DNA from: Pseudomonadales bacterium
GTDB taxonomy: Bacteria > Pseudomonadota > Gammaproteobacteria > Pseudomonadales > DC-out160
Reading direction: 5' to 3'
Assembly (NCBI GenBank): GCA_019090455.1
Contig: JAHRWA010000104.1
Span: 1-64,000, forward strand
DNA: 64,000 nucleotides
In this document: piece after piece, positions 10,061 through 51,667 of the stretch
Position numbering within the stretch: position 1 is the stretch's first letter
Layout of the letters: every line of letters begins with the position of its first letter
The notes under the pieces: generated by a model
The model's input: the letters and a program-made list of their open reading frames with translations, nothing else
The model's database searches: none
Told to the model about the DNA's origin: nothing
Program-made: the position numbers and the translations under genes

Positions 10061-10072
10061 GACGTTTTTTAT

Positions 10073-28307: not shown

Positions 28308-28635
28308 GAAGAATCCTTTTTATCAAATCATTGTCCGAAGAATAACGGTCTAAGAGTGTTCTTAGTACTTTTTTTGAAAAAAAAGTACTGTATAGCAAGG
28401 TGAATCAGAATGTTACCAAAATAGCTTTATTTGTATGATCTAAGGTGTTTTTTGTTTGGTGCATTCTTGTTTTATTCTTATGTTGACCAGAATAGCTATC
28501 CATTGTAGCTGTTAATTATTGTTGGTACTCATCGCTATCAATGAAGCATCTTTAAATCGAGTGGATCGCTCTAGGTAGTGCTATATTTTATTGAGAGAGG
28601 CATGTTTTCATAAAACGAAAAAAGGGAGAAAACCG
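28308..28635. other. Divergent spacer with AGTAC-type palindrome
   Basis: 328 bases between the permease (minus) and the small binding protein (plus). It contains the inverted repeat 28364-28389: arms agtacttttttt and aaaaaaagtact around a two-base centre. A DNA-bending operator or a bidirectional transcription end are both possible. No gene is seen. Confidence 0.5.
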
Positions 28636-29061
28636 ATGAAATATAACATTTATTACTGCTTAGTTGCGGTGTTGAGTGCGGTCTTTGTGGCTCCGGTATT
28701 TGCGGAGACTATCGTGGTTGTGGGTCATCCTACTGTTTCAATAAAGGAAATATCCTACGCGGACCTGAAACGCCTTTTTTTAGCTAAATCCGATGAGGTT
28801 CAAGGTGTAAAGCTAGAACCTATTGTGCAATCTACTCTTCAGCCAATTCGGATTGTTTTCGATGAGGATGCTTTGGGCAAAGATCCTTCCAAATCGAAAG
28901 CCTATTGGTCTCGACTCATTTTTACTGCCGCCGGCATACCGCCTCGAACATTTAAATCCACTGTCGAGGTAATGCAGTGGATATCGGCCCATCCAAATGC
29001 TATCGGATATATCGAATCAAGTGCGGTAAATGAGACTGTTAAGGTGCTCATAGAATTATAG
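28636..29061 (+). CDS. Small periplasmic PstS-like binding protein
   Basis: About 141 residues. Signal peptide MKYNIYYCLVAVLSAVFVAP..A is followed by a compact phosphate-binding-like domain (VVVGHPTVSIKEISYADLKRLF, KAYWSRLIFTAAGIPPRTF, VMQWISAHPNAIGYIESSAV). The same short single-lobe form is found beside phosphate-regulated or sensor genes in many gammaproteobacteria. The frame starts at 28591, but ATG 28636 follows AGGGAG and begins the signal peptide. The ligand is unproven. It lies 200 bases before the PQQ dehydrogenase gene on the same strand. Confidence 0.85.
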   Translation: MKYNIYYCLVAVLSAVFVAPVFAETIVVVGHPTVSIKEISYADLKRLFLAKSDEVQGVKLEPIVQSTLQPIRIVFDEDALGKDPSKSKAYWSRLIFTAAGIPPRTFKSTVEVMQWISAHPNAIGYIESSAVNETVKVLIEL

Positions 29062-29260: not shown

Positions 29261-31213
29261 ATCAAACGATCTTATCTGCAATACACACCCATTCTTGTTT
29301 TTTCTGCCTTGGCTTCAAGTCAGGCTTTTGCAAATGAAGTGACTGACACGACTATAGGTTGGGGGACTTATGGCAATGGCACCCACTACAATCGATTCTC
29401 TGAATCAAAACAGATTACCCCGGATAACATTAAGCAGCTAAAGCCAGCGTGGAATATCCAAACGGGCAATGACGACGACCAAATGATTTTAGTTCGATCA
29501 TTTGGTAATACGCCGCTGATGATCAATGGTTCCTTATATACCTGTACCCCCGATGAGGATATCGTGGCATTGGACCCCCTCACTGGAGCCACTAAATGGC
29601 GCTTCGACTTTTCAACATTAAATCGAGATCGCAGTGCGGTTCGGGGCAATTGCTGGAGCGTGGTTCATCATGAAAACGAAAATGCGAAACCGGGCGATGC
29701 TTGTGCTTCTCGCTTATTGCATGTGACTCAAAAAGGGGATTTGTTTGCTGTGGATGCGAATGACGGCAAGCTTTGCGAGACCTTCGGAACTGACGGCATT
29801 GTGGCTTTTCGTGCTCATGAGGAGGAGATGTTCGACGGTGAAATTTACAACGTGACAGTACCCGTTGTTGTCGGTGACACCATTGTTGTGGGCAATTCAC
29901 CTTTGGATGGTATTAGAACAGATGGTCCTAAAGGTTATATTCGTGCCTTTAACGTGTTGAGCGGTGAGCTGTTGTGGCGCTATCGGCCAATACCCGGTCC
30001 CGAAGATGTGGAAGCGTATAAGACATGGGCTCCTGGCACTGCTGAAAAAACGGGCGCTGCGAATGTTTGGTCTGGGTTTAGTGCCGATCCTGAATTGGGC
30101 TTAGTGTATGCGCCTGTTGCTACGGTTGCGCCAGATTACTATGGTGGTGAACGTATTGGGGATAATCTTTATGCGAATACGTTAATTGCGTTGGATATCA
30201 AAACAGGTAAGCGCGTCTGGCATTATCAAGTGGTCCATCATGATGTTTGGGATTACGATTTACCCACTCCGCCTCTGCTGGTTGATTTAACGATTAATGG
30301 AGAAGTGAGGAAAGCGGCAATTCAGCCTACTAAAATGGGCATGCTATTTACTTTTGATAGAGCGACTGGAGAGCCCTTACACCCCATAGAGGAACGTCCT
30401 GTTCCCAAAGCGATACTCGCAGGGGAAGAATTATCTAAAACCCAGCCGTTTCCTGTTGTTCCGCCACCTTTGGTTCCTCATAGTTTTGAGATTAAGGATT
30501 TGTACGGGCCGACGCCTCAGCATAAGAAGGAGTGTGAAGAGTTAGTAGAAGGCATGCCTGATGCCACTATCTATGGTGCGTATGGGCCTAAGGGTATGAT
30601 TCAGATTCCGGGCGCGGTTGGGGGCAGTAATTGGGGTGGCGCTACTTTCGATTCCGATAGAGGAATCTTGGTCGCACCGGTTATGAATTTCCCTATCATT
30701 ATGCACTTGGATAAGAAGTACAGCTTGAAGTGGTGGGCTGGACTATTTAGTGAAGTCTTCTCTTTTAGAAGACCTAATTTCATACCTTTAATGGGGACTC
30801 CCTATGGTTTGCGCTTGCAATGGTTTGCGGCCAAAGATGGTACGCCCTGCATTGCACCGCCGTGGTCTAAGCTAGTCGCTGTAGACATGTCGGAAGGTCA
30901 GATACTCTGGGAAGCGCCGTTGCTGAGTGAGCGCACAGAAAAGGTTGGAGAAGGGCAGCAAATGACCTTAGGTGGCGCAATGTCGACGGCTGGAGGTATT
31001 ACCTTTATTGCTGCGACACCGGATCAAATGTTCCGTGCGTTTGAGACTAGTACTGGAAAATTGTTGTGGGAATATGAATTACCTGCATCGGGTAATGCAA
31101 CACCCATGTCATACGAGATAGATGGTAAGCAGTATGTTGTTGTGGCGGCGGGAGGCAGTGATTTAGTGGGGTCTGCCAGGGCTGATCATATCTTCGCGTT
31201 TAGCATCGATTAG
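29261..31213 (+). CDS. Periplasmic PQQ-dependent dehydrogenase (glucose/quinate dehydrogenase-like)
   Basis: About 650 residues. The eight-bladed propeller repeats of the membrane glucose dehydrogenase (Gcd)/quinate dehydrogenase clade are clear: VALDPLTGATKWRFD, VWHYQVVHHDVWDYDLPTPP, GKQYVVVAAGGSDL. The N-terminal membrane domain of Gcd is absent and no haem CxxCH is seen, so it is a soluble periplasmic quinoprotein. No ATG, GTG or TTG precedes the mature part in a sensible place. AGGAGG at 29247-29252 is followed at 29261 by ATC starting IKRSYLQYTPILVFSALASS, a good signal peptide. The AUC start, or a point error there, is discussed in the findings. Substrate unknown; not a methanol dehydrogenase. 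Confidence 0.9.
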   Translation: MKRSYLQYTPILVFSALASSQAFANEVTDTTIGWGTYGNGTHYNRFSESKQITPDNIKQLKPAWNIQTGNDDDQMILVRSFGNTPLMINGSLYTCTPDEDIVALDPLTGATKWRFDFSTLNRDRSAVRGNCWSVVHHENENAKPGDACASRLLHVTQKGDLFAVDANDGKLCETFGTDGIVAFRAHEEEMFDGEIYNVTVPVVVGDTIVVGNSPLDGIRTDGPKGYIRAFNVLSGELLWRYRPIPGPEDVEAYKTWAPGTAEKTGAANVWSGFSADPELGLVYAPVATVAPDYYGGERIGDNLYANTLIALDIKTGKRVWHYQVVHHDVWDYDLPTPPLLVDLTINGEVRKAAIQPTKMGMLFTFDRATGEPLHPIEERPVPKAILAGEELSKTQPFPVVPPPLVPHSFEIKDLYGPTPQHKKECEELVEGMPDATIYGAYGPKGMIQIPGAVGGSNWGGATFDSDRGILVAPVMNFPIIMHLDKKYSLKWWAGLFSEVFSFRRPNFIPLMGTPYGLRLQWFAAKDGTPCIAPPWSKLVAVDMSEGQILWEAPLLSERTEKVGEGQQMTLGGAMSTAGGITFIAATPDQMFRAFETSTGKLLWEYELPASGNATPMSYEIDGKQYVVVAAGGSDLVGSARADHIFAFSID

Positions 31214-38812: not shown

Positions 38813-40081
38813 CTAGATAAACGAAGGAATCATAATTCCAGCAATTTCTTGGTAATAACGATTGCCAGTTTCATCATAGAGAAAGATGAGTCCAGCGAAG
38901 AAACTATCAGGATCGTAAACCAAGCTGGTTAAACGTTGCGTCTCCCAAAGTGCATCTTCTACCACCATGTTAACGACACTCGTTTTACCCGGTTGAATTG
39001 AGTCGCCCAAGATTTCTATTGAATCAGAAGCGACTAAATGATCGGGATCTTCAGGCTGAATATCCAGCACGTCCGAATTGATAAATCGAATGTTGGCTGT
39101 AGCAAACTCACCGATACGAAGTGGTTCTGGCGTGTTATTGGTTATGGTTAATTGCACGTCGAAGCTTCGTCCTGGAATACGATAGGTTGCATTACCTACT
39201 TTGACTTTGATTTTCTCATTTTCCGCTGGGTTCTCCATGGGTTCAACGGGTATCCATCCCGTTTGCAGTGGAATGGTACGCGGGACGAAATGTTCAGTGA
39301 CAAGGTAACTGATACCGATTAACGTCACTATGATGGCAACGGTGAACATCCCTACCAGGCTTTCGCGAGTGGTAATGATCTCATCGGCTCGTTCTTTCCC
39401 CAGTTTTTGTACAGCGATAAAGCGAGGCATGATGACTGGGCTAGTTCTCATGTTACGAAGCCAGAATGCGATCCATGCCAATGCGATGACCGTCCAAAAA
39501 GCATGAAGGCCAATAGAAGCGGAAAGGCCGTATGTTTCCAAATCAATGGTGTCTCCATTTAACGTGGTTACCGTATTAACGAAGTCAGCCTGGTTGCCTG
39601 TGACATCCACCCAAAATGCCGGTCCAATGATGGGGCCAGCACCCTTAATGCTCATGACGGGATGTACGTGGTAATGTCCCGGTGATCGTGCTTTCAGAAC
39701 GATTTCATATTCGTATAATTTCCCAAGTTCAAAAGAGGTCGATCTAATCATCGGAGTACCATTAACGTGGGAGCTAACTCTGATAAATTTTGGACCGGGT
39801 ACGCCCACATTGAGAAATGCCATTTCTTCAATGGATGCCATGTGCTTGGGCCAATGTTTAGAGGGCATGAACTTACCGGTAATGATGACTTGTTCATTCA
39901 CCGAGACAGTTCGAGGTGAAATTTCGGTGTCGAACCAGTTCATCGTTCGCATCCTAAGACCCGCTTGTTGGGCTTTTTCACCGTGAGCGAAACTTTCACC
40001 CGAGATAATTAAAACGAGACAAGCAATTATGTAATGAAATCCTAATGAGCGACGAATACTTCTATTCTTAAGTGTTTTCAT
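38813..40081 (-). CDS. xmoB: Copper membrane monooxygenase subunit B (PmoB/AmoB family)
   Basis: 422 residues. A signal peptide ends FA at residues 31-32, leaving mature N-terminal His33 in HGEKAQQAGLRMRT. With the HYHVH motif at 136-140 this keeps the copper site of the soluble cupredoxin domain known from PmoB (His33, His137, His139 in the Methylococcus enzyme). Two membrane helices (about 188-215 and 245-268) separate it from a second cupredoxin-like domain. Last gene of the minus-strand xmoC-A-B operon. The copper ligands are intact, so an active enzyme is expected. Whether the substrate is methane, a short alkane or alkene, or ammonia is not decided by these residues. Confidence 0.95.
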   Translation of the reverse strand: MKTLKNRSIRRSLGFHYIIACLVLIISGESFAHGEKAQQAGLRMRTMNWFDTEISPRTVSVNEQVIITGKFMPSKHWPKHMASIEEMAFLNVGVPGPKFIRVSSHVNGTPMIRSTSFELGKLYEYEIVLKARSPGHYHVHPVMSIKGAGPIIGPAFWVDVTGNQADFVNTVTTLNGDTIDLETYGLSASIGLHAFWTVIALAWIAFWLRNMRTSPVIMPRFIAVQKLGKERADEIITTRESLVGMFTVAIIVTLIGISYLVTEHFVPRTIPLQTGWIPVEPMENPAENEKIKVKVGNATYRIPGRSFDVQLTITNNTPEPLRIGEFATANIRFINSDVLDIQPEDPDHLVASDSIEILGDSIQPGKTSVVNMVVEDALWETQRLTSLVYDPDSFFAGLIFLYDETGNRYYQEIAGIMIPSFI

Positions 40082-40125
40082 TGGTTGATCCTCCGTTGAT
40101 CTGGTGACAATAAGCTATTTTCGGT

Positions 40126-40989
40126 TTACCAAATTCGACTGCTCCATCGGCTTTCCGATAAATAACTACCAATTAAGACCCATAGGTAGTAGTTGATGAT
40201 ACAAACGAAGCCCGCAAAAAATGCGGTGAGAGGTGTCACGGCTTCGCCAAACGTACGCAGCGTTGATTCTTCAATGATGCGAACGTATTCAGGAATCGCT
40301 GTACGTACATATTGATAACCCGTTAAATCAGCGACGGTAACCAAGGTTCCGTGATAGTCAACGGGTACATGCCACAGGGCAAACACAGGCCAGTTTGCCG
40401 CGTAAGGAAGAAGCCCAAATAAAAAAGCACCCAGAAAACCGGTAATATAAAAACTCTTCGTCCATACCAGCATTGCATCGAGAATGACCCCCAGCATAAT
40501 TAACGTAGAGGGTGAAACAAAATTGAGAGGGAAGTCAGCAAATGAATAAAAATTGAAAACGCGGCTGAGCCACATTCCTATGACAAAACTCAACATGGAT
40601 GCCGTAGCACCAATGGGTAATCGCAATTTGTTCCAGGTAAACGTACCGATAACGGTCGGAAAAATAATATAAAGCGCTGGGATTACCAATGGCCACCAGC
40701 GCCTATCCCGCCAGTCCATCCAATAGTCCCAATCTCCAACGGTCACTGCCGATAAAAATACCGTGATTCCACCGAACAGCAATAAAATAATCGGAATGCT
40801 GACCATGTCTATATTACGGTAGGCTTCGAGTTGTTCTTGAGGGGTGCTGACTGCTGATTTTACTTCGCGGATTTTATTAGGGTCGGGCACTTTGCCGTCG
40901 ATTAAGTTTTCTGCACCAGGAATTGCGATGGCCATGGATTGCCTCACTTGAAGTTTATTGAATGGAGTGGGAAGACCTGGCAAGAGCAT
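40126..40989 (-). CDS. xmoA: Copper membrane monooxygenase subunit A (PmoA/AmoA family)
   Basis: 287 residues, about seven membrane helices. Conserved blocks are VGDWDYWMDWRDRRWWP, NKLRLPIGATASM, NWPVFALWHVPVDYHG, YQYVRTAIPEYVRIIEE and STLRTFG. The N terminus is extended by some 60 residues compared with most PmoA/AmoA. ATG 40989 has AAAGGCG upstream; ATG 40935 with GTGAGG is an equally good start. Changes at otherwise fixed PmoA positions (for example WHVPVDYHG in place of the PmoA LHVPVEYNG) suggest a branch away from methanotroph PmoA and AmoA, in the direction of hydrocarbon monooxygenases. It is separated from xmoC by a terminator and from xmoB by 44 bases. Confidence 0.95.
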   Translation of the reverse strand: MLLPGLPTPFNKLQVRQSMAIAIPGAENLIDGKVPDPNKIREVKSAVSTPQEQLEAYRNIDMVSIPIILLLFGGITVFLSAVTVGDWDYWMDWRDRRWWPLVIPALYIIFPTVIGTFTWNKLRLPIGATASMLSFVIGMWLSRVFNFYSFADFPLNFVSPSTLIMLGVILDAMLVWTKSFYITGFLGAFLFGLLPYAANWPVFALWHVPVDYHGTLVTVADLTGYQYVRTAIPEYVRIIEESTLRTFGEAVTPLTAFFAGFVCIINYYLWVLIGSYLSESRWSSRIW

Positions 40990-41014
40990 CTTCGCCTTTC
41001 ATTTACACCTTCAC

Positions 41015-41094
41015 TTCTAATACAAATAATTATTTTTTAACACATACATTGATTTTCTAATACCAATGTTTATTTTCTAATACCAATATAGCTA
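41015..41094 (-). repeat. Three 20-bp imperfect repeats in the xmoA leader
   Basis: ttctaatac(c/a)aat units start at 41015, 41055 and 41075, the last two in exact tandem at 20 bp. They lie 26-105 bases upstream of the xmoA start on the minus strand, in a very AT-rich stretch. A regulator-binding array or leftover slippage are both possible. Confidence 0.6.
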
Positions 41095-41177
41095 AAAGAG
41101 CAGAGCAAATACAAACATAACTTTAAATAATTAGTTATGTGGCTGCGTAACTTCATAAATATCAGTGAAGGATAAGA

Positions 41178-41211
41178 AAAGGCCCGCAACGCTTTCCCGT
41201 TGCGGGCCTTT
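41178..41211 (-). terminator. Strong hairpin between xmoC and xmoA
   Basis: Perfect 14-bp GC-rich stem (41178-41191 with 41198-41211), 6-base loop, followed on the minus strand by TTTTCTT; it starts 55 bases after the xmoC stop. It is expected to end a large share of xmoC transcripts before xmoA. Confidence 0.85.
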
Positions 41212-41265
41212 ATTTGAGGTCGATTAAAAACCGATTGGTAGTCTATAAAAAATCACGAGTTGTGC

Positions 41266-42105
41266 TTAAGTGGTTGCACTCGGCCCTTCTGATAAAGGGT
41301 CAATGAGCTGTTCCGTGTCATCGAGCCTAGTTAGTTTATCAATGCGTATATAACACTGCACAAGAAACCCTCCAAATGCGAAAAACCCTAATCCCAACAC
41401 AAAAAAACCATAATGAATCGGAGCGCCAAATAATTCTTCTGCATAAAAGAAGGTGTGGCCCCACTCGTTAAGTCCTAAGTTAGGAAAGACGAGAGCAGGA
41501 CCCGCAGCCAAAAAAGCGAAGGGAATTGAAATGCGACTATGAAAATCGGGTAATCGTGTGTGAACCCAAACGAATGCCATTAACATCCCGCCAAACATAA
41601 GAGGCATTGCAAAATAAAAAAGTCCGATATGGGTGGGAGTGAAATCGGTATCTCGAATGGTGACTTGGTGCCACGCGGCATCAGCTTCTGCAAAGAGTCC
41701 CAGTGCAACAAAAGAGGCGATGCTGGCGACGGCCATTAACGCGAACATCGTGTAATATCTTTGTAATTCTACTTTGGGTGGAACGGCATCTGGATCTTTT
41801 TCTCGAGTAAACCAGAGTATGGGGACAACCGTAAAAACCAATAGCGCAATAAGAGTCAGCTGGACATACATGAGACGCATCCAGTAGTACTCAAATTCAG
41901 GCGTAAAATAATCGAGTCCTACTGTGAAGGAATAGGCATTCATATACAGCCGATAGGCGACGAACAGGACGACACTGGCAGCAACCCAAGAGAGGGCAAA
42001 AAGCCATGGTACTTTGGGTTTTATCTCTGATTGGTCTTGGGCTTTATCTAGTGAGGTAAGATTTTTCGGTAATTCTTCTCGCATGGATTCAATTACGACT
42101 GACAT
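41266..42105 (-). CDS. xmoC: Copper membrane monooxygenase subunit C (PmoC/AmoC family)
   Basis: About 279 residues, six predicted membrane helices. The metal site of PmoC is kept: Asp150 and His154 in EADAAWHQ and His167 in FTPTH (counted from the upstream ATG 42129), equivalent to the Asp, His, His triad of the methanotroph protein. PNLGLNEWGHTFFYAEELF is the other signature. ATG 42105 is preferred because AAGGGAG precedes it; ATG 42129 has no ribosome-binding site. First gene of the operon. The 248-base spacer upstream should contain the promoter, but I see no clear sigma-54 or copper box. Confidence 0.95.
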   Translation of the reverse strand: MSVVIESMREELPKNLTSLDKAQDQSEIKPKVPWLFALSWVAASVVLFVAYRLYMNAYSFTVGLDYFTPEFEYYWMRLMYVQLTLIALLVFTVVPILWFTREKDPDAVPPKVELQRYYTMFALMAVASIASFVALGLFAEADAAWHQVTIRDTDFTPTHIGLFYFAMPLMFGGMLMAFVWVHTRLPDFHSRISIPFAFLAAGPALVFPNLGLNEWGHTFFYAEELFGAPIHYGFFVLGLGFFAFGGFLVQCYIRIDKLTRLDDTEQLIDPLSEGPSATT

Positions 42106-42353
42106 TTCATTTCTCCCTTCCGGCTTCATTCAAGACAACGGACCATTGGCGAAACTCAACCAAACATAAAGTTTGCAATTAGTAGCAAGTTTATGTCTCC
42201 CTTTTTATATTGTCTAGTGATTTTATTCGGAAGATTTTTGTCAGTGATTGATGATCGGTATCGTATTTGATTTATCAATCGGGCGTCCAACTGATTTATA
42301 TTTCTATGCGATATAGCGGGATGATCTAAAACCTGTCGCCGGCTATGGTTTTA

Positions 42354-43244
42354 TTAATCAGAATTTAGACTTATCTCTTTTTTAAACGCTAGCAATAAGC
42401 GGCTATAGATTGGCCCAACACTTGTTTGAAATGCGATGCCGTCAAGACTTCGTACGGGAATTAATTCTGCGCCGGAACCTGTGAGAAAGCATTCGTCGGC
42501 GTGATAAAAGCTTTCTGGTTTCAAAGAATGTACTGTAGTTGGAATACCTAACGCGCTCGCAAGTTCCAACACAACACTTCGGGTAATGCCTTCCAGTGCA
42601 CCGTCAGAACACGGAGGGGTATATAAGGTTTTATCTTTAACCAGAAATATATTTTCGGCACTGGCTTCACAAACATGGCCCTGACTATTCAGTAGTATCG
42701 CTTCGTCAGCTTGTGCTTGGTTGGCTTCGAGTTTTGCCAATATATTATTGAGATAATTTAAACTCTTAATTCTCGGGTCTAGTGCCTCGATCGAAATCCG
42801 TCGTGTTGTGGCGGTTATCAGTTGAATGCCTTCGGACAATTTTGTGGGCTCCATAAGGGATAGCGTATCGGCGATCATTATTATATTCCCAGTTTGGCAG
42901 TTTCGTGGATCGATGCCGAGCGCGCCCACCCCTCTGGTCAAGATCAATCTTAGGTAGCCATCCTTTAGCGGCGACAGTTCAACTAGGTTATGTATCCATT
43001 GAGTGAATTGATTTTTGTCGACGGGCATAGGCAAAGAAATCGCATCTGCTGAGCGGCACAATCGAGTGATATGTTCGTCTAGTTTAAAAATGTTCTTGTT
43101 GTAGAATCGAAGCCCTTCAAAAACACCATCACCGTATAAAAGACCATGATCGAAAATGGAAATGCTCGCGTCTTGTGCCGCTATGAATTCACCGTTAATT
43201 AAGCAACGTGCGGTCTGATGGTCAGGTTCTGTGGCGCTACTCAT
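42354..43244 (-). CDS. Class IV aminotransferase (branched-chain/D-amino-acid type)
   Basis: 296 residues. Fold-type IV PLP enzyme: DHGLLYGDGVFEGLRFYN, LRLILTRGVGALGID, catalytic Lys in RIKSLNYLNNILAKLEA, EASAENIFLV and the phosphate-binding LEGITRSVVLEL. The pattern is of the IlvE/Dat group rather than PabC. It overlaps the upstream phzF-like gene by eight bases, so both proteins are made together. A MocR-type regulator, itself aminotransferase-derived, is divergent from this pair, so the operon probably handles an amino acid sensed through PLP. Substrate unknown. Confidence 0.9.
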   Translation of the reverse strand: MSSATEPDHQTARCLINGEFIAAQDASISIFDHGLLYGDGVFEGLRFYNKNIFKLDEHITRLCRSADAISLPMPVDKNQFTQWIHNLVELSPLKDGYLRLILTRGVGALGIDPRNCQTGNIIMIADTLSLMEPTKLSEGIQLITATTRRISIEALDPRIKSLNYLNNILAKLEANQAQADEAILLNSQGHVCEASAENIFLVKDKTLYTPPCSDGALEGITRSVVLELASALGIPTTVHSLKPESFYHADECFLTGSGAELIPVRSLDGIAFQTSVGPIYSRLLLAFKKEISLNSD

Positions 43245-44073
43245 AAATTTCTCCAGTCAATATTGTCTTTGCTTGGCCACGAATAAGAACTCGATTATTT
43301 TTTAGCGTTAGCTTGAGTGAGCCGGAACGGGGAGAGGCTTGATACGCATTGAATTGTGTTTTCATGGTTTTCTGTGACCAAAAGCTCGCAAGCGCACAGT
43401 GGGCTGATCCGGTGACATGATCTTCGTCGACGCCGACTTTGGGGGCGAAGAAGCGAGACACAAAATCGTAAAGAGTTTGTGTGGATGCGGCGGTGATAAT
43501 CAGTCCTTCGATATCCATGCTTTTCAATTTACCTAAGTCTGGATTCAATTGAGTTAGTTGTTCAGCGTCGGGGAGCAGGGCAAGGCGGCGATTTCCGCAT
43601 TGATGAATTTCGATAACGTCGCAATTTAAAAGCGCTTCGATCTCTTTCTTTAAATTCTGTTGATCTAATGGTGTCGTATTGATAAGAGGTAAGTCGATTT
43701 CAATACCGAGTTGGCTGAGCTTTGCGGTAAGCAATTCGTCTTTTGTGTGGAATACAATATTTTGTTTTTTTGATACCACTTTTGATTCCCACAAGGCATG
43801 GGCGCTAGCCAGAGTGGCGTGTCCACAAAGCGTCATTTCCGTATTAGGAGTAAATGATCGCAAAGAAAAATGTGCATCAGGAGATGGTGTTGCGTTGTCT
43901 TGTATTGTGTTTGGATGAGGGATTATGTAAGCGGTTATCGGTAAATTCATTTCAGCGGCAAAGGCCGCTAACCATGAGTCGCTTTCGTCTTGTTGCATAA
44001 AACAGATAGCGGCGGGATTTCCTTTGAATGGTTCTTCTGTAAAGGCATCGATGTGAAATAGCTTTTTAGTCAT
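43237..44073 (-). CDS. PhzF-family isomerase/epimerase-like protein
   Basis: 278 residues with the two-lobe diaminopimelate-epimerase-like PhzF fold: HIDAFTEEPFKGNPAAICF at the start (the general-acid Glu/Asp region), SLRSFTPNTEMTLCGHATLAS and DEDHVTGSAHCALASFW. Phenazine production is not implied, as no other phz gene is near. Most family members are uncharacterised. First gene of a two-gene operon with the aminotransferase; probably controlled by the divergent MocR protein. Confidence 0.9.
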   Translation of the reverse strand: MTKKLFHIDAFTEEPFKGNPAAICFMQQDESDSWLAAFAAEMNLPITAYIIPHPNTIQDNATPSPDAHFSLRSFTPNTEMTLCGHATLASAHALWESKVVSKKQNIVFHTKDELLTAKLSQLGIEIDLPLINTTPLDQQNLKKEIEALLNCDVIEIHQCGNRRLALLPDAEQLTQLNPDLGKLKSMDIEGLIITAASTQTLYDFVSRFFAPKVGVDEDHVTGSAHCALASFWSQKTMKTQFNAYQASPRSGSLKLTLKNNRVLIRGQAKTILTGEIYE

Positions 44074-44151
44074 GATCAGGGCTCGAGTTAATTTCAGAAA
44101 ACTAATCTTAAGTCGTAAATCATAGCCATAACAGATATAGAATAAAAAATA

Positions 44152-44219
44152 TAACCCAGTACAGATGAAGTGATATAATAACTGTACTGCATGTGTTTAG
44201 AGTTAACTGTACTGGGTTA
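44152..44219. promoter_or_regulatory. CTGTACT repeat operator for the MocR regulator
   Basis: TAACCCAGTACAG (44152-44164) and CTGTACTGGGTTA (44207-44219) are perfect inverted copies. A further AACTGTACTG lies between (44180-44189) in the same direction as the second. They fill the divergent spacer up to 12 bases before the MocR start. Repeated CTGTACT-like sites are typical of MocR/PdxR binding. Confidence 0.75.
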
Positions 44220-44230
44220 CGGGAGGATCG

Positions 44231-45664
44231 ATGAGGCTTTACGAGAAGGTGGCAGAATCTCTTGCTCAAGAAATTGAAGGAGGCCAGTATCCATTTCAGC
44301 AACGTTTACCGGGAGTGAGAAAACTTGCCGAGATCTATGGGGTTAGTGTATCAACGGTTTTAGAAGGCTTGGCCTTATTAGAAAATAGGCGTTACGTAGA
44401 AGTTCGAGAACGGTCCGGGCACTATGTTTGTTATCGTCAAAATATCGTGCTGGAATTACCCAGAAGCGCGAAAAGCAAAATGAGACCGCGTCCGATTAGC
44501 TCTCACGAGATGGCGTTAAATTTAGTGGGGGCGACGATGGAAAAGGATATAGTGCAATTGGGTGCGGCGGTTCCTCATAGCGATTACTTGCCGAGTAAGG
44601 AGGTCAACCGATCCGTTAAGGCGATCTGTAAGGAAGAAGAATTTCACAGTGCAGGTTACGACTTTCCGCCGGGGTATGCTCCTTTGTGTGAGCAGCTGGC
44701 ATTGCGTATGCAATCCTTTGGACGTCAATTGAGAGGAAGGAAATCGGTTTCTCACTCCGATATTGTGATTACCAGCGGATGTCAGGCGGCATTAACGTTG
44801 GCGCTTAAGTTGTGTTGTCAGCCCGGTGATATCGTGGCGATAGAGTCGCCTACCTTTTATGTTTTATTGCAAATTATCGAATCCTTAGGGTTGAAGGCGA
44901 TAGAAATTCCGACTCATCCGGAAAGCGGTTTAAATGTGGGAGCCTTGCGTTTGGCGTTGGAGCAGTGGCCAGTTAAAGCGTGCATTTTGATTCCACACTT
45001 CGGCAACCCGCTAGGACACTTAATGAGTGAGGAGGATAAGTTAGAATTTTTGTCTGTGATAGGCGAATACGACCTTCCGGTTATTGAAGATGATATCTAT
45101 GGTGATTTGAGTTTCAGCCAAGAGCGACCGGTACCCATGATTGAAATGGGATATGATAACGTGATCTATTGCTCCTCCTTTTCTAAGACCATTTCTCCGG
45201 GGTTAAGGGTGGGTTGGATTGCGTCCAAAAGATATCAAGATAAATTGGAGTACCTGCAATATGTAAATAGCCTCTCTGCCTCGACGCTGTCGCAGCGAGC
45301 GCTTTCCCATTATTTAGCGAAAGGTACCTATGACTCGCATCTGCGTAGGGTACGAATGACGTATCGACATCAAATACAAGAAATCACCCGTTTAATTGAA
45401 AAGTACTTTCCTGGTAATACGAAAGTCAGTCAGCCTGCGGGAGGTTTTGTTTTATGGCTAGAGCTGTCGCGTAAAGTGGATACCTTGGAATTATATCGTG
45501 CGGCTTTAACAAAAAAAATCAGCGTTGCACCGGGCCCCATGTTCTCTGCTAGCGGAAAATATAAAAACTACCTACGTTTGAATTGTGCCTTACCCCTCGA
45601 TGGTCGATTGGAGTGGGCGATTATGACCTTGGCTGATTTAGTGGAAGTACTTCAAGACCAGTAA
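44231..45664 (+). CDS. MocR-type GntR/aminotransferase transcriptional regulator
   Basis: 477 residues. N-terminal GntR winged helix (LAQEIEGGQYPFQQRLPGVRKLAE, VSVSTVLEGLALLENRRY) and a C-terminal fold-type I aminotransferase-like domain: TSGCQAALTLALKL, VIEDDIYGDLSF, and the PLP-Lys region SSFSKTISPGLRVGWIAS. The PLP Lys is present, so it can bind the cofactor. It is a transcription factor that senses PLP or an amino-PLP adduct and most likely controls the divergent phzF-like/aminotransferase operon. AGGATCG precedes ATG 44231. Confidence 0.92.
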   Translation: MRLYEKVAESLAQEIEGGQYPFQQRLPGVRKLAEIYGVSVSTVLEGLALLENRRYVEVRERSGHYVCYRQNIVLELPRSAKSKMRPRPISSHEMALNLVGATMEKDIVQLGAAVPHSDYLPSKEVNRSVKAICKEEEFHSAGYDFPPGYAPLCEQLALRMQSFGRQLRGRKSVSHSDIVITSGCQAALTLALKLCCQPGDIVAIESPTFYVLLQIIESLGLKAIEIPTHPESGLNVGALRLALEQWPVKACILIPHFGNPLGHLMSEEDKLEFLSVIGEYDLPVIEDDIYGDLSFSQERPVPMIEMGYDNVIYCSSFSKTISPGLRVGWIASKRYQDKLEYLQYVNSLSASTLSQRALSHYLAKGTYDSHLRRVRMTYRHQIQEITRLIEKYFPGNTKVSQPAGGFVLWLELSRKVDTLELYRAALTKKISVAPGPMFSASGKYKNYLRLNCALPLDGRLEWAIMTLADLVEVLQDQ

Positions 45665-45705: not shown

Positions 45706-46356
45706 TCAACGATAATTAGGGTCGGCCATAAAGGGATTACTTTTACGTTCGCGACCGATGGTAGACATGGGGCCATGTCCCGGAATAAAGCGATAATTAT
45801 CACCGAGTGGCCAAAGTTGATTCTTGATAGATTTGATTAAGGTTTTATGATTTCCACCGGGCAAATCACTACGTCCAACAGATCCTTGAAACAGCACGTC
45901 CCCAACCGCTAGAAGTTTTGCCGAGTGGCTGACAAAAACCACATGGCCAGCGGTATGACCAGGGCAATAGAGAACATCCAAAATCTCATTGCCAACCTTG
46001 ATTTGCTCGCCTCCTTGCAACCATCGTGTCGGTTTGAAGCTAGCGGCTTTCTTAATGCCAAGGAGCTTCCCCTGTACTGCGATGGTTTTAATCCAATATT
46101 GATCTTTTTTATGCGGCCCTTCTATATCGGCTGAGTATTGTTTTGAACAGTGTTTCGCAAGAGAGGCATGATCGGCGTGAGCGTGAGTGATCAGGATTTT
46201 CGATATTTTGATTCCCAATTTTTGAACTTTGGAATGGATGCGATCGAAGTTACCACCTGGATCAACGATGGCGCCAATTTTGGATTTATCGCACCAGAGT
46301 ATTGAACAGTTTTGTTCGAATTGGGTAACGGGAATTATTTGAAATTGTAATGCCAT
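45706..46356 (-). CDS. Metallo-beta-lactamase-fold hydrolase (YcbL/glyoxalase II-like)
   Basis: About 216 residues. Zinc motif THAHADHASLAKH, the further metal His in CPGHTAGHVVF, GDVLFQGSVGRSDLPGG and the final His in RFIPGHGPMSTIGRE are all present. This is the short YcbL-like branch of glyoxalase II proteins, so a thioester hydrolase of the hydroxyacylglutathione type is likely. The frame opens at TTG 46389, but ATG 46356 (MALQFQIIPV) is the natural family start. Single-gene unit. Confidence 0.9.
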   Translation of the reverse strand: MALQFQIIPVTQFEQNCSILWCDKSKIGAIVDPGGNFDRIHSKVQKLGIKISKILITHAHADHASLAKHCSKQYSADIEGPHKKDQYWIKTIAVQGKLLGIKKAASFKPTRWLQGGEQIKVGNEILDVLYCPGHTAGHVVFVSHSAKLLAVGDVLFQGSVGRSDLPGGNHKTLIKSIKNQLWPLGDNYRFIPGHGPMSTIGRERKSNPFMADPNYR

Positions 46357-46457
46357 ATGATTAACACGCGGGTTGTTACAGTAAGTCAAAAGGGTATGAC
46401 TTATTATGATTGGAGGTGACTTGTTTTATTGGTTGTGTCTGGAAGTCTTTTATTAAT

Positions 46458-46814
46458 TTAAACCGCTGTTGTTACGGTAAAGGTTTCGTCATTAGCGACG
46501 GAGGATTGTAAAAACTCCAGACTGCTCATGCCTTCAAGCTCGAGACATGTTTTAAATAAACGAAACATATTTTTTGCAGTACCATTTCCCTTTGGACTGA
46601 GCATGCGGCGTAGACCCGCTTCTTGCATTTGCATCATGCTCGCTACTTTACCAAAGTTTTTAGTGCCGTTGAGGTAGTCTCGAAACAAACTGTTACCAAC
46701 AACGATATCGCCTTCAAGGTAGGATTCTAAAGCTTCTATTAAAATAGCAACTCGATACTGTTGATCCTTGCATAATTCCATAACGGTTTCTTTAAAATCG
46801 CGTGTTAGGGCCAT
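46458..46814 (-). CDS. HigA-like antitoxin
   Basis: 118 residues. N-terminal acidic region, then a Cro/CI-type helix-turn-helix (NFGKVASMMQMQEAGLRRML, then TAKNMFRLFKTCLEL), the pattern of the addiction-module antidote group. It lies 2 bases behind the toxin gene, so toxin-first order as in higBA. It should bind the toxin and repress the promoter, whose palindrome is described separately. Confidence 0.85.
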   Translation of the reverse strand: MALTRDFKETVMELCKDQQYRVAILIEALESYLEGDIVVGNSLFRDYLNGTKNFGKVASMMQMQEAGLRRMLSPKGNGTAKNMFRLFKTCLELEGMSSLEFLQSSVANDETFTVTTAV

Positions 46815-46816
46815 TT

Positions 46817-47245
46817 CTAATGCCTTTTGTTAATGCCTTTGTTTTTACTTTTGCCACTTTTTTTCTCAGGCCCCTTATTAGGCCTTAATTTTTTGGCTGT
46901 GCTTTTCGGTTTTCTAGCAATGTAATCTTTTAAGTATTCTTTGGACTGATTGATGGAAGTTTGTTGGTCTGATTTATCACTAGCCATAAAAAGAATAATG
47001 ATTTCTTCGCCTTCGGTTATATAGTAGATGCGATAACCAGGGCCAAAATGGATGCGCCGTTCATATAGGCCATCCATAATGGATTTGTGATCGCCAAAAT
47101 TACCGGCTTCCATTTGTTTCACGGCTTTGGTAATTTTGGCTTTTCCGCGTATATCTTTTAGGGCTGTCAGCCAGTTTCCATACGGGCTTTGTCCCTCGTT
47201 GGTTAGGTATTCCCTTGCTGTTCGTTCTATCGTTGCCTTAACCAT
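46817..47245 (-). CDS. HigB/RelE-family addiction-module killer toxin
   Basis: 142 residues. The first 105 match the RelE/ParE-superfamily killer proteins: GNWLTALKDIRGKAKI, NFGDHKSIMDGLYERRIHFG, PGYRIYYITEGEEIIILF and the terminal SDKSDQQTSINQSKEYL. Such toxins cleave mRNA at the ribosome. Unusual is a C-terminal tail of about 35 residues made mostly of Lys, Arg, Gly, Pro and Ser, absent from the minimal family. A 13-bp tandem repeat (taatgcctttt.gt) spans its stop codon. First gene of the pair. Confidence 0.87.
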   Translation of the reverse strand: MVKATIERTAREYLTNEGQSPYGNWLTALKDIRGKAKITKAVKQMEAGNFGDHKSIMDGLYERRIHFGPGYRIYYITEGEEIIILFMASDKSDQQTSINQSKEYLKDYIARKPKSTAKKLRPNKGPEKKSGKSKNKGINKRH

Positions 47246-47263
47246 GTATGCTCGCTTATTTAC

Positions 47264-47287
47264 AATAATAACATATATGTTATTATT
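47264..47287. promoter_or_regulatory. Perfect 24-bp palindrome, toxin-antitoxin operator
   Basis: The sequence is aataataacata and its exact reverse complement with no spacer, 19 bases upstream of the toxin start codon. Position and symmetry fit an autoregulatory operator bound by the antitoxin dimer. Confidence 0.75.
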
Positions 47288-47365
47288 TTCAAGGCTGTTC
47301 CTATGGTATTGATATAGAGTTGATTGTAATGTTTGGGTACTCTACAGATGGTGTCTTAATTGCTT

Positions 47366-48226
47366 TTATTGAGTCGGCTTGCGGCTAATACGATGCAGTA
47401 AACCAAAACCAACCCCCGTTATCGCACCAATAATAAGGCCGCCCAAGTGCGCCCAATTAGCGACAACATCTTTGAAAAGAACAAAGCAAAGCACTAACCA
47501 AACCACCATCATCATGACTATTTGTGGTCGCAATTGATAACCCGCATTGGGATTTGTTTTACCGTAAAGCCAAAGGTATCCCATAAGCCCGTAAACGACT
47601 CCCGACATGCCGCCGAAGCTCGGGCCTGTCATCGTGTATTGCCAGATATTTGAAAATAAGCCGATGATCACCAGCAACATCAATAGTTGCCAGCCCGATT
47701 CATACTCCTCGATGATCCGACCCAACTCAAACCACCAGAGTAAATTGAAAGCCACATGCATGAGACCAAAATGCATAAAAACAGGCGTTAATAATCGCCA
47801 AGGTTGTGTGAGGGAGCTCAAATCACCGATGTCCGACGGAAAGGCTAGCCAGTTATAGATAACATCAGTTTGGAAAAGAGTCGTGACACCATAGATGCCA
47901 ATGCACAATATCATGATGCTTAAAGTGAAGGGGCCGGAACGTAATAATCGCTCTAAGGGAACAACCGATCCCCGTGGCATATCGCTTAACCTGACATTAT
48001 CGTCATTGTTAACCTCCCACGAAGCAGCCAAATATTTTGGATTGTTGGGGTCTTTGATAAAGGCTTTTAATTCATCGGTGGCGAGCGCAATAGATCCGAG
48101 GTCTTGAAGTATGATTTGTGTTTTACCGTCGATAGGGTTGAGCCTGTTCTCGATACCTAGGGAGCGAAGGTAATCGGAAAAGGCCTGTGCTGCTCGTAGA
48201 TTGCTAATTTCACCTAATATGTGCAT
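47366..48226 (-). CDS. glpG: Rhomboid intramembrane serine protease GlpG
   Basis: 286 residues. N-terminal cytoplasmic domain of about 85 residues, then six membrane helices. The catalytic Ser lies in GGMSGVVYGLMGYLW and the His in NWAHLGGLIIGAI; HFGLMHVAFNLLWWFELG is the second conserved block. The complete dyad makes an active intramembrane protease likely. GlpG cleaves membrane-protein substrates within the bilayer; natural substrates are few and not inferable here. Confidence 0.92.
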   Translation of the reverse strand: MHILGEISNLRAAQAFSDYLRSLGIENRLNPIDGKTQIILQDLGSIALATDELKAFIKDPNNPKYLAASWEVNNDDNVRLSDMPRGSVVPLERLLRSGPFTLSIMILCIGIYGVTTLFQTDVIYNWLAFPSDIGDLSSLTQPWRLLTPVFMHFGLMHVAFNLLWWFELGRIIEEYESGWQLLMLLVIIGLFSNIWQYTMTGPSFGGMSGVVYGLMGYLWLYGKTNPNAGYQLRPQIVMMMVVWLVLCFVLFKDVVANWAHLGGLIIGAITGVGFGLLHRISRKPTQ

Positions 48227-48397
48227 TGCTTGTGACTTGTCTCGTTGTTGTTGTCGGTAAACGGGGGGAGTTAAGAATACATCAAATTCACCGAGAGTAT
48301 GATTAAAACGGTTTCAGAGGAGTTAGGTCTTTTCAGCGGCGGAGTTTGTCTGAACCCTCATATCCATGCGCTTGAGTGAGAATGAATATTCCATTCT

Positions 48398-48985
48398 CTA
48401 TTGAACCTGTTGTATCCGGTTAATAATCTCGTTAATACATTCCAAAGAAAGATCTAATGCATTTCCGATTAAGTTCACTCGAAGGCGGTCTTCGTAACTC
48501 AAGTCAGACATAGCGCGTGTCATCAGGTAGGCGGCTTCCACCAGTCTTATTTTTGCCATTGTATTTAAGCGAAACGAAGCTGCCTTTAACGTTTCGAATA
48601 TTTCTTTGCCTTCTGAAAGGGCGGCTATATTATTGCGCAACTCTTTTTCATCAGACTCTTGATTCGTCATGTTTTGGTATATGTCGGCAGCCAGGAGTTT
48701 GCTTTCGTTGACGCCATATCCCAACATTAGGTAGGACAGGATCATTGATAGATGGGGGATGTAGGCGGGTTGGCTTGTGTCCTTTGGATCGTAGGAATGC
48801 AGGCAATGACTGCATTCTAGATAATCACCGATTAGCTTTAACGGTAAAATACGAATAAAAAATACAGTGAAATAGTTTTTGTCTAGGACATGCAATGCTG
48901 TTTGTGGTGATTGGCAGATAGGACAGTCGAAGCTGCCGTGATCTGTGGTTGTTCTAACGACTTTTTCGCCTAGTAGAAATAGCAT
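48398..48985 (-). CDS. Zinc-ribbon protein with TerB-like helical domain
   Basis: 195 residues. A four-Cys zinc ribbon (Cys21-x2-Cys24 ... Cys58-x2-Cys61) flanks a hydrophobic segment (FTVFFIRILPLKLIG). The C-terminal 115 residues are helical and resemble a TerB-like domain (AKIRLVEAAYLMTRAMSDLS). I do not recognise a characterised relative. The hydrophobic loop could associate with the membrane or with a partner. No operon partner is visible on the same strand within 170 bases. Confidence 0.7.
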   Translation of the reverse strand: MLFLLGEKVVRTTTDHGSFDCPICQSPQTALHVLDKNYFTVFFIRILPLKLIGDYLECSHCLHSYDPKDTSQPAYIPHLSMILSYLMLGYGVNESKLLAADIYQNMTNQESDEKELRNNIAALSEGKEIFETLKAASFRLNTMAKIRLVEAAYLMTRAMSDLSYEDRLRVNLIGNALDLSLECINEIINRIQQVQ

Positions 48986-49204
48986 GGGGGAACAAGTGCT
49001 CTTATATTGGGAACCCTCTATGCCGGCGATAGGCCATGATATAGGGGGGGTTCAATTGTTGAATTGGATTTTAGTGAAGGCTAAATGGGCAGTGTAATGG
49101 GTCTCGGATTAGACTGCGATGTTCTAGCAGTCATGAGCGCTGCAAAATTGAAACTATTAACTAAGCTTTAGAGGTATCGAATCGAAATAGTAAGGAAATT
49201 CAGT

Positions 49205-49606
49205 ATGCGGCATCTACTTATTACATTATTAAGTCTGCTCGGCGCTCAGTTTTCTTTGGCTCATGAGGCACCTTTAAATGCTGTGGGGTGCCATTTGCAG
49301 CGCAGTTCTAACGTTCACCATTGTCACGAAGGAAAAGATTTTCAGCGTAAAGTGAGGAAGAACAATTCTTTTAGCGGACAAACAGCTAAAAAAGTCCCGA
49401 AGAAACGATACGAAGTCAAATTGGTTAAAGCCATTCAGCAGCAGTTGACGCTGGCCGGATATAATGTGGGCCCTGCGGACGGTGTTTATGGCGGTAAAAC
49501 CAGGGAAGCTATTTTATCGTTCCAGAAAAAAAATGCATTCAAAGTGACGGGGCGTCCGTCGGAGTATGTTCTATCTAAGTTGCGTGATTTTAATCGACTC
49601 AATTGA
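49205..49606 (+). CDS. Secreted peptidoglycan-binding-domain protein
   Basis: 133 residues. Signal peptide MRHLLITLLSLLGAQFSLA, then a short YHYH-like segment with paired Cys and His (VGCHLQRSSNVHHCHEGKDF), a basic linker, and a C-terminal PG_binding_1 repeat (LVKAIQQQLTLAGYNVGPADG and TREAILSFQKK). It probably resides in the periplasm bound to the wall; no catalytic domain is seen. Neighbours give no further hint. Confidence 0.85.
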   Translation: MRHLLITLLSLLGAQFSLAHEAPLNAVGCHLQRSSNVHHCHEGKDFQRKVRKNNSFSGQTAKKVPKKRYEVKLVKAIQQQLTLAGYNVGPADGVYGGKTREAILSFQKKNAFKVTGRPSEYVLSKLRDFNRLN

Positions 49607-50080
49607 ATCTCTTCTTTCGGCGCTATCACTTAGGATCAAGTGTCCTCCCTCCCGTCCTTCCTTTTTCTCTAAGTAGGGACTGATACTCCTTACTACTCCC
49701 TGATAGTATCAAAAGCCATGTGGTGAATTGCGTGCGTTGCTGTTCAACATGTTGCTGTTTCCAATACAGGGCAGTTCTGGTAGATTTACGGCGGTGTTAA
49801 ATTTTGTTGGTTAAATGAAAAAGGATAAATAGCGTTGATATTTATTCCTCGTCAGAAACTCCGGAATCCCTCAGTACGGGAATGAAAGCCCCTTTGTTTC
49901 GCCCCGCCATTTCTGCGTAGACTGAATTCGTAATCGGTAAGAAACAGACCAAGCTTCCCTTGCTATTTTCAAGCTCAATTGCGTTGATACCGAGTCAGAA
50001 GTGGGGAGAGTAAAAACGGACAAAACCAACTTATTAGAAATAGTGATTGATGTATCGCTAACATGGAGAGAGAAACAATA
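49607..50080. other. 474-base spacer before the DUF35/thiolase operon
   Basis: No gene seen. It contains one short inverted repeat (tgatact at 49681-49687 with agtatca at 49705-49711) and should hold the promoter of the plus-strand operon. Confidence 0.4.
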
Positions 50081-50503
50081 ATGACAAATCAAATTCCCCT
50101 TGAAGATGGTTATATGATCATCCCGGAAGACCCTGAAGGGCCTTGCCGGTTACTGGGCTCTTATAGCAAGGCTGCGGATAAAACGTATTTTCCTATTCGC
50201 AAACGTTGTCCTATTACGGAAAAAGAAGTGGAGACTGTTGAGCTTTCAACTGAAGGTGAATTGTATTCATGGTCATTTGTTTTTATGCCTAGAATGGGCA
50301 GCATGAAGTTAGCTGCTGGTGGTGGTTTTGGCGTTGGACAAATTGATTTGCCTGAAGGTGTTCGTATCCAATCTGTTATTGATGGCGAGCAAAAAGATTT
50401 TAAAATTGGCATGAAGATGAGACTTGCCGCCAACCCATTAGTGACGGATGACGATGGCACAGAATACTGTGGCTTTAAATTCGTACCCGTAAAAGAGGAT
50501 TGA
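50081..50503 (+). CDS. DUF35 OB-fold protein (thiolase partner)
   Basis: About 140 residues. GGAGAG at 50066-50071 serves ATG 50081; the frame extends to ATG 50063. The N-terminal zinc-ribbon part is degenerate: FPIRKRCPIT has one Cys where the family has CxxC pairs. The OB-fold part follows (TEGELYSWSFVFMP, EGVRIQSVIDGE, MKMRLAANPLVTDDDGTEY). DUF35 proteins bind thiolase-like partners and shape the entry to their active sites. The stop lies 3 bases before the thiolase-like gene, as expected for a two-subunit enzyme. Confidence 0.85.
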   Translation: MTNQIPLEDGYMIIPEDPEGPCRLLGSYSKAADKTYFPIRKRCPITEKEVETVELSTEGELYSWSFVFMPRMGSMKLAAGGGFGVGQIDLPEGVRIQSVIDGEQKDFKIGMKMRLAANPLVTDDDGTEYCGFKFVPVKED

Positions 50504-50506
50504 TTC

Positions 50507-51667
50507 ATGAATCGTGACGTTTATGTTATTGGAGTGGGTATGCACCCATTCAGCAAAGAATATCATCCCCTTAGGGATATGTATTACACTGCAGGCGTTG
50601 ATGCGTTAAAAGATGCGGGTTTGGATTTTCGCGATATAGGTTCTCTATACAACGGTTATATCGGTGGCACGATGATGGAAGGTACCGGTTACGCTAAAGA
50701 TCTCGGATTGACTGGTGTACCGATTGTTCATGTTGAAAATGCCTCGGCAACGGGATCTTCCGCATTCCGTGAAGCGGTGTGGTCTGTATCGGGTGGTGCT
50801 TCCGATGTGGCTATGGCAATGGGATTTGATGACATGTTACGAATGAGCGTGGCACGTAAGAAGCCTGCGCCTGGCGCGAAAAAGGGTATTCCCTCTTTTG
50901 AAAATACTTTATTGCCGGCTGGTTTTTTTGCAATGTGGGCAGTGAGACGTATGCATGAAATGGGTACGACTGTTGAGACCTATGCGAAGATTGCGGCTAA
51001 AAACTGGAATCATGCCCGTCATAATCCCATGGCGCAGCGTCGTGCGGATCATGAAATAACAGTTGAAGAAGTATTGGCAGCTCCGATGGTTGCTCATCCT
51101 CATACTGCTATGATGGCTTGTGCTAGTGGCGGTGGTGCGGCTTGCGCTATCGTTGCGACAGAAGAATGGGCGAAGAAACACGCCAATGGCCGTCCGATGG
51201 TCAAAGTGCTTGCATCGCAATTACAGTCTGAGGTTTACACCGAAGGACACATCTTTATGGGTGCTGTAGTAGGGCCTTCTTATTCGACTGAACGTACGGC
51301 TAAGATGGCTTATGAAGAGGCCGGGATTGGTCCAGAGGACCTCAGTTTAGTTCAGGTACACGATGCTTTTCCGATTGAAGAATTGATGTATTACGAACTA
51401 CTCGGAATCTGTGGCGAAGGTGAAGGCGATAGGTTAGTTCACGATGGTGATACGGCTATTGGCGGGAAAATTCCATTCTCGACTGATGGTGGCTTGATTG
51501 CTCGAGGTCATCCAGGTGGTCCAACGGGTATTGCACAAGTGTGGGATGCGGTTAGGCAGCTACGCGGAGATCAAGGAAAGTTTCAAGTTGAAGGTGCGCA
51601 AAACGCATTGGTTCACATGATGGGCGCGGGCTCTGTTTGTGCTGTGCACATATTGCAAAAAGTTTAA
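50507..51667 (+). CDS. Thiolase-like protein lacking the nucleophilic Cys
   Basis: 386 residues, SCP2/lipid-transfer thiolase branch. Conserved blocks are VQVHDAFPIEELMYYELLG, DGGLIARGHPGGPTG and the C-terminal GAGSVCAVHIL. Where active members have an NNNC(A/S)TG nucleophile loop, this protein reads VENASATGSS: the Cys position is Ser80. The protein therefore cannot form the usual acyl-Cys intermediate in the normal way. Together with the DUF35 partner it resembles steroid side-chain aldolases (Ltp2-type), which also lack that Cys. A retro-aldol function on an acyl-CoA is the best guess. A bidirectional terminator follows. Confidence 0.88.
   Translation: MNRDVYVIGVGMHPFSKEYHPLRDMYYTAGVDALKDAGLDFRDIGSLYNGYIGGTMMEGTGYAKDLGLTGVPIVHVENASATGSSAFREAVWSVSGGASDVAMAMGFDDMLRMSVARKKPAPGAKKGIPSFENTLLPAGFFAMWAVRRMHEMGTTVETYAKIAAKNWNHARHNPMAQRRADHEITVEEVLAAPMVAHPHTAMMACASGGGAACAIVATEEWAKKHANGRPMVKVLASQLQSEVYTEGHIFMGAVVGPSYSTERTAKMAYEEAGIGPEDLSLVQVHDAFPIEELMYYELLGICGEGEGDRLVHDGDTAIGGKIPFSTDGGLIARGHPGGPTGIAQVWDAVRQLRGDQGKFQVEGAQNALVHMMGAGSVCAVHILQKV

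Follow-up and report, generated by a model that had tools for sequence, protein, structure and literature searches.

What is the substrate of a copper membrane monooxygenase (CuMMO) that belongs neither with the enzymes of methanotrophs nor with those of ammonia oxidizers? The question is raised by contig JAHRWA010000104.1 of a Pseudomonadales bacterium (assembly GCA_019090455.1), of which we analyzed the first 64,000 nucleotides, here called the window. On its minus strand, at 38813-42129, three uninterrupted open reading frames (ORFs) encode pmoC, pmoA and pmoB in the order C-A-B. The original prediction, made from the letters alone, called a complete C-A-B operon at 38813-42105, and the operon is indeed intact:

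41269..42105, minus strand: pmoC/hmoC-like subunit C, 279 amino acids from the favored ATG; the ORF can begin at 42129 and its stop codon is 41266-41268.
40126..40989, minus strand: pmoA/hmoA-like subunit A, 287 amino acids.
38813..40081, minus strand: pmoB/hmoB-like subunit B, 422 amino acids, with CuB ligands His33/His138/His140.

The pmoC start at 42105 is favored over 42129 because the first ATG of the frame in an 85%-identical homologue (locus L003; relatives are cited by such labels) is the equivalent one. The answer matters beyond this genome: natural gas has short alkanes among its major components, and for many of the enzymes assigned to them uncultured genomes are the sole source.

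The metal ligands that had been claimed (PmoB His33 and HYHVH; Asp, His and His in PmoC) are all present. PmoB has His33, His138 and His140. PmoC, in the 279-residue numbering, has Asp142, His146 and His159 in one site and Asn213, His217 and His231 in another. We take these three sets to be the sites named CuB, CuC and CuD, of which the first two are also described in the literature. With C, A and B encoded together and all three ligand sets in place, the operon belongs to the CuMMO superfamily. Its pmoA matches the Pfam family AMO (PF02461) with an E-value of 7.7e-79, and the subunits have strong sequence matches to solved structures of particulate methane monooxygenase (pMMO) and ammonia monooxygenase (AMO). 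PF02461 is uncommon: outside the source genome it has a match in 3 of the 55 relatives and in 10 of the 368 genomes of the class that were sampled.

Could the enzyme be an ammonia monooxygenase? Subunit B alone might suggest so, since it scores 513 bits against the NCBIfam AmoB_BACT cut-off of 336; it falls slightly under the combined CH4/NH3 subunit B model (389.7 against 394.9). The other subunits say otherwise. Subunit A is below both the ammonia and the combined models (266 against 290; 260 against 318), as is subunit C (232 against 319; 197 against 281). Because subunit A lies under both cut-offs, it departs from both groups, as had been predicted.

Phylogeny places the operon more precisely. 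A scan of named genomes yielded 132 stretches encoding a relative, of which the nearest 80 were kept; no Haliea locus is among these 80. To them were added loci of further genomes and two actinobacterial plasmid hydrocarbon monooxygenases (HMOs); most PXM loci of methanotrophs were excluded (the name PXM is applied here to seven rows ordered A-B-C). As references, L088 is almost letter for letter a solved pMMO subunit and L090 is the closest to solved AMO. In the PmoA tree (69 different rows, 8 duplicates dropped) the window is one of 52 rows in a clade of Gammaproteobacteria and Burkholderiales (support 100/100) that is separate from pMMO, PXM, AMO and actinobacterial HMO. A tree of concatenated C, A and B (50 rows) recovers a 34-row clade and, within it, a 14-row subclade with the window, each at 100/100. 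Members of the clade include Solimonas, Polaromonas/Rhodoferax and uncultured gammaproteobacteria. When the window, L003 and L009 were forced together with another group, the approximately unbiased (AU) test rejected pMMO (p 3e-72), AMO (p 2e-43), PXM (p 1e-106) and actinobacterial HMO (p 5e-4); because the groups were chosen after the tree was known, the p-values do not have the meaning they would have had for a test stated in advance. The non-methanotroph grouping of subunit A anticipated earlier is thus borne out in both trees. Among the best 80 of 132, the closest relative of the window PmoA is that of the metagenome-assembled genome (MAG) NORP220 (L008), at 90% identity, followed by NORP120 at 76%; the L008 PmoA is identical to that of a same-genus genome, G001. 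By sequence, then, the window operon is a copper membrane monooxygenase of a proteobacterial hydrocarbon-monooxygenase-like clade.

We think it likely that this enzyme hydroxylates a short n-alkane, most probably of two to five carbons (C2-C5), to the alcohol. pMMO-type enzymes are trimers of CAB units. In the proposed scheme the CuMMO, a predicted trimer of this kind, would use its PmoC copper site, O2 and electrons from quinol to convert the alkane to the alcohol. The alcohol would then be oxidized to the carboxylic acid, first by a type II quinohaemoprotein alcohol dehydrogenase (ADH) and next by an aldehyde oxidase, for which the molybdenum enzyme beside a second operon described below is a candidate. 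Acyl-CoA ligases and beta-oxidation would consume the acid.

The rest of the genome (5.55 Mb, 106 contigs, 98.3% complete) bears on this proposal, and we compared the searches with 14 control genomes. Fae, the sole formaldehyde route searched, was not found in the source genome; two of the controls matched. Two proteins exceed the cut-off of TIGR03075, the methanol/ethanol model of pyrroloquinoline quinone (PQQ) enzymes, which no control does. Both are type II quinohaemoprotein ADHs: they carry a C-terminal cytochrome domain, their best PDB matches are 1kv9 and 1yiq, and they score up to 787 and 729 bits against quinohaemoprotein ADHs, compared with up to 325 and 347 against methanol dehydrogenases. 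No methanol dehydrogenase of the MxaF/XoxF type is among the TIGR03075 proteins over the cut-off; further PQQ-type frames lie under it on contigs 4, 20, 35 and 91. The non-methanotroph setting predicted earlier agrees with what we find for fae and for the PQQ enzymes over the methanol/ethanol cut-off. No protein of the hydroxylamine oxidoreductase family PF13447 was found in the source genome, whereas the AMO-bearing control G375 has three. With the AU rejection and the scores of subunits A and C, this makes ammonia oxidation disfavored, and an ammonia monooxygenase exceedingly improbable in spite of subunit B. Soluble diiron monooxygenases could be alternative alkane oxidizers; their family PF02332 has no match in the source genome, but none in the controls either.

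The prediction of a short alkane or alkene oxidizer is upheld, in direction, in its first half only, by phylogeny and genome content. An alkene monooxygenase would feed ethylene or propylene into an epoxide pathway, as in Haliea strain ETY-M. PF01717 (Meth_synt_2), the Pfam family to which EaCoMT belongs, has no member in the source genome, and 10 of the 14 controls matched it. In ETY-M, which grows on ethylene, EaCoMT and the monooxygenase are reported to be co-transcribed (PMC6440738). In favor of alkenes, marine Haliea that assimilate ethylene have pmoA-like genes, and they degrade ethane, propane and propylene as well (PMC4036023). Growth on alkenes is nonetheless disfavored, and we regard an alkene monooxygenase of this kind as very unlikely.

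Relatives of the operon connect the clade with alcohol oxidation. Of 43 relative loci scanned, 8 contain an ADH with 45-56% identity to whichever of the genome's two is nearer, a lower bound because some loci are short. In seven of the eight (L032, L034-L038 and L040, from Hydrogenophaga, Rhodoferax, Polaromonas and a Burkholderiales MAG, several with the same PmoA) the gene lies directly downstream of pmoD; in L025 it is about 6 kb upstream. This linkage supports alcohol as the predicted product of the clade as a whole rather than of the window operon in particular. On L120, one of the contigs of the genome's PQQ-type ADHs, a cytochrome P450 gene (5808-7076) is one gene from the quinohaemoprotein ADH gene (8996-11284); it presumably resembles the alkane-hydroxylating CYP153, and may belong to a separate route for longer alkanes.

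Several points weigh against a short alkane as substrate. The tree comprises no characterized enzyme of the window's clade, its rows including neither Haliea sequences nor the particulate hydrocarbon monooxygenase (phmo) sequences of uncultured Cycloclasticus, and the PmoA tree carries long-branch warnings. The ADH and aldehyde oxidase genes are not adjacent to the window operon. The best prpB match, in a fragment, scores 60 bits, under the cut-off of 354 that 4 of 14 controls pass, so that odd-chain products would need another route. The CuMMOs of Polaromonas, Rhodoferax and Solimonas are listed as of unknown function (PMC8630023), and the pmoABC genes found in marine Cycloclasticus and in a single Colwellia MAG have been read as methane oxidation (PMC11409719). 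Lastly, CuMMO substrate has been linked to residue HmoC151, which is Ala in HMO, where it is said to be highly conserved, and Asp in methanotroph PMO (PMC8630023). The equivalent in the window PmoC is Asp154, methanotroph-like and not the Ala of HMO. If strict, the HmoC151 rule would argue for methane.

Is the organism then an unconventional methanotroph? The Asp, the Cycloclasticus and Colwellia reading and the description of CuMMOs as promiscuous all favor a methane monooxygenase. On the other side are the position outside the pMMO clade with its AU rejection, the missing fae, the one formaldehyde route searched, and two PQQ enzymes that are not of the MxaF or XoxF type; taken together, these make methane an unlikely substrate. 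Asp is also found at this site in the clade rows aligned. Genome content argues that Ala at HmoC151 marks actinobacterial HMOs only. In the HmoC of Mycolicibacterium chubuense NBB4 this Ala is residue 127 of the annotated protein, or 151 counted from an ATG 24 codons upstream. The locus offers a natural comparison for the residues that set substrate range, as the proposed hydrocarbon-oxidizer residue is methanotroph-like here.

A last alternative looks to the surroundings of the operon: the substrate could be a ketone, a longer, branched or cyclic hydrocarbon, or a chlorinated alkane, tied to the neighboring genes. As had been noted, these are acyl-CoA and amidohydrolase genes, together with aminotransferase genes; they include enoyl-CoA hydratase, amidohydrolase-2 and OB-fold/thiolase-type genes. 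There is also a precedent, since PMO3 of Methylacidiphilum shows that a CuMMO can specialize on acetone (PMC8630023). The Glu of PMO3, however, is not present in the window PmoC, and no pathway gene travels with the operon among relatives. We conclude the latter because shared neighbors are so restricted: strong matches to the window's other genes are confined to the same-genus L008 (65-97%) and to ClpB in L018-L021 (60-73%), and the thiolase-type ORF has 30-39% matches in seven other loci. Such a substrate is, in our judgment, quite unlikely. The description of the surroundings requires one correction, a PQQ dehydrogenase 8 kb from the operon:

29309..31213, plus strand: PQQ dehydrogenase, 634 amino acids, closest to the glucose/quinate group, probably outside the operon's pathway.

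We considered this protein as the partner alcohol dehydrogenase and rejected it. It is glucose/quinate-like rather than methanol-type, with its top score against the glucose/quinate model (522 bits, cut-off 833) and 229 bits against the methanol/ethanol model (cut-off 480), and it is 27-28% identical to the genome's two PQQ-type ADHs.

The genome holds two PmoA and two PmoC genes, the second CAB operon being on contig 50 (L119:12999-20000). Identity between the two operons is 54% for A, 48% for B and 45% for C. A tree in which the two PmoAs are constrained to group is worse by 142 log units, which rules out a recent duplication and implies that the operons are old paralogues or separate acquisitions. 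The second operon has an AraC-type regulator upstream and, downstream, pmoD followed by the FAD, 2Fe-2S and molybdopterin subunits of an enzyme of the aldehyde-oxidase/CO-dehydrogenase type. Its gene content makes it a candidate for a compact alkane-to-acid cluster. Two further ORFs there look acyl-CoA dehydrogenase-like by eye.

The two operons also differ in PmoD. Among 60 clade loci examined, 11 are too short downstream to judge; pmoD follows pmoB in 41 of the 49 testable loci and is missing from eight despite at least 1 kb of downstream DNA. Some of these loci are the same genome twice and so are not independent events. The conserved gene after pmoB, without matches in Pfam or NCBIfam, is not an unknown family: a PDB profile match (6cpd, E 7e-21) identifies it as PmoD. 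No pmoD lies next to the window operon or elsewhere in the 64-kb window. The loci without it form two groups: the window, L009, L010, L011 and L013 in one, and L042, L045 and L051 in the other. The six-row PmoD-less subclade is supported at 98/84 by PmoA but at only 91/64 by the concatenation. The window-type copy of NORP220 (L008) is too short downstream to judge. The second group would imply two losses of the need for an operon-encoded copper protein. That group belongs to a long-branched set (L042, L043, L045, L051, L101 and L102), PmoD-less where testable, in which PmoC has the motif NEWAH (in L101, NEWGH), preceded by residues unlike those of the rest of the clade.

Where would the copper protein come from? 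For seven of the eight PmoD-less loci, another locus with pmoD is present in the same genome or bin: L119 in the source genome, L019 in NORP120 (for both L009 and L011), L020 in UBA3067, L018 in NORP74, L012 in Gammapro7 and L014 in WOFB31. Most of these genomes are MAGs, in which bin errors are possible. For L051 (KhS_metabat.21) the locus set holds no companion with pmoD. NORP120 itself has three CuMMO operons (L009, L011 and L019), two without pmoD and one with it. The source genome also has an orphan pmoD near the end of contig 13 (L128:7095-7754), which lacks the motif His. PmoD for the window operon could be supplied in trans, by the second operon or by this orphan. The orphan's contig also has a 504-residue ORF that is porin-like in look, with no Pfam match, and encodes a small secreted protein similar by eye to window 28591-29061. 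Where the Cx7MxHxnC motif has Met, each of the 17 PmoDs aligned from the proteobacterial clade has Lys, Arg or Gln. CuA formation is reported to be confined to the Met-bearing motif (PMC6189053), so these PmoDs probably do not form a CuA site.

It is possible, though doubtful, that the window operon is a distinct PmoD-less type of hydrocarbon monooxygenase paralogue kept alongside a PmoD-bearing one (in the source genome, NORP120, NORP74 and UBA3067), differing from it in substrate or affinity and receiving its copper in trans. The titles and abstract openings of the literature on pmoD and hydrocarbon monooxygenase, in partial coverage, yielded no description of such a pair in this clade. With two divergent operons, of which just one is accompanied by PmoD, this nearly complete genome from a lineage without the methanotroph markers tested is a natural comparison for the role of PmoD in CuMMOs.

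How does the operon relate to known systems? It adds a new member to an already known enzyme type, as proteobacterial CuMMOs outside pMMO and AMO are published for Haliea, Cycloclasticus, Solimonas and Betaproteobacteria (PMC4036023, PMC12510462, PMC6215863). Cycloclasticus MAGs from n-pentane incubations have several phmo operons, PQQ-type ADH and phmo peptides, and are argued to use short alkanes including n-pentane, with one phmo clade labeled as of unknown substrate (PMC12510462). By description only, they are alike in having a CuMMO outside pMMO, several divergent operons per genome and PQQ-type ADHs that do not group with methanol-active ones. Haliea likewise has gammaproteobacterial CuMMO genes far from the methanotroph and nitrifier groups (PMC4036023), but it has EaCoMT, and the source genome is without a PF01717 member. 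The Polaromonas/Rhodoferax and Solimonas enzymes share the fully supported 34-row clade and the Asp at the HmoC151 site; their operons carry pmoD, unlike the window operon, and those of Polaromonas/Rhodoferax have the PQQ-type ADH directly downstream, where the window operon has none. NBB4 HMO, which when heterologously expressed is reported to consume ethane, propane and butane (PMC6440738), has the same CAB order and copper ligands but belongs to a separate clade and has Ala where the window has Asp. Methanotroph pMMO and PXM have homologous subunits and the copper ligands, and pMMO the CAB order too; both are rejected as the closest group, and the PXM rows are ordered A-B-C.

Two further features lie between pmoC and pmoA:

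41178..41211, minus strand: terminator-like hairpin between pmoC and pmoA, its 14-bp stem closed by a 6-nt loop and followed by a T-rich tail.
41015..41083, no strand assigned: AT-rich direct repeat, three overlapping 29-nt copies at 20-nt spacing, at least 67% identical to the reference copy, upstream of pmoA.

Terminator-like sites are not in excess in a region-wide scan (4 found, 3.5 expected). Under a stricter criterion applied to the C-A gap, a hairpin is present in 17 of 46 clade loci compared with 0.7 expected from approximate doublet-preserving swaps, 3 of the 17 repeating another locus. The hairpin sequences vary among relatives, which fits a conserved role rather than a conserved sequence. 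Judged from sequence, the hairpin is probably a partial terminator, and it probably makes pmoC more abundant than pmoAB. The AT-rich repeats may be an operator, but short repeats can arise by chance, and none were found in the C-A gap of L008.

Composition lends no support to a recent horizontal gain of the operon. GC content is 42-47% over the operon and 40-49% around it; GC at third codon positions is inside the range of five neighbors for pmoC and pmoB and slightly above it for pmoA. The window's ClpB gene (21371-24088) is 15 kb from the operon; L018-L021 likewise have ClpB close to their operons. Aminotransferase, PhzF and MocR-type genes occupy 42354-45664, between pmoC and a metallo-hydrolase gene, with two small genes beyond (46458-47245). 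In L008 the metallo-hydrolase begins about 1 kb before pmoC, leaving no space for the aminotransferase, PhzF and MocR genes, and the two small genes are unmatched there. The flank at 45706-51667 is common to the window and L008.

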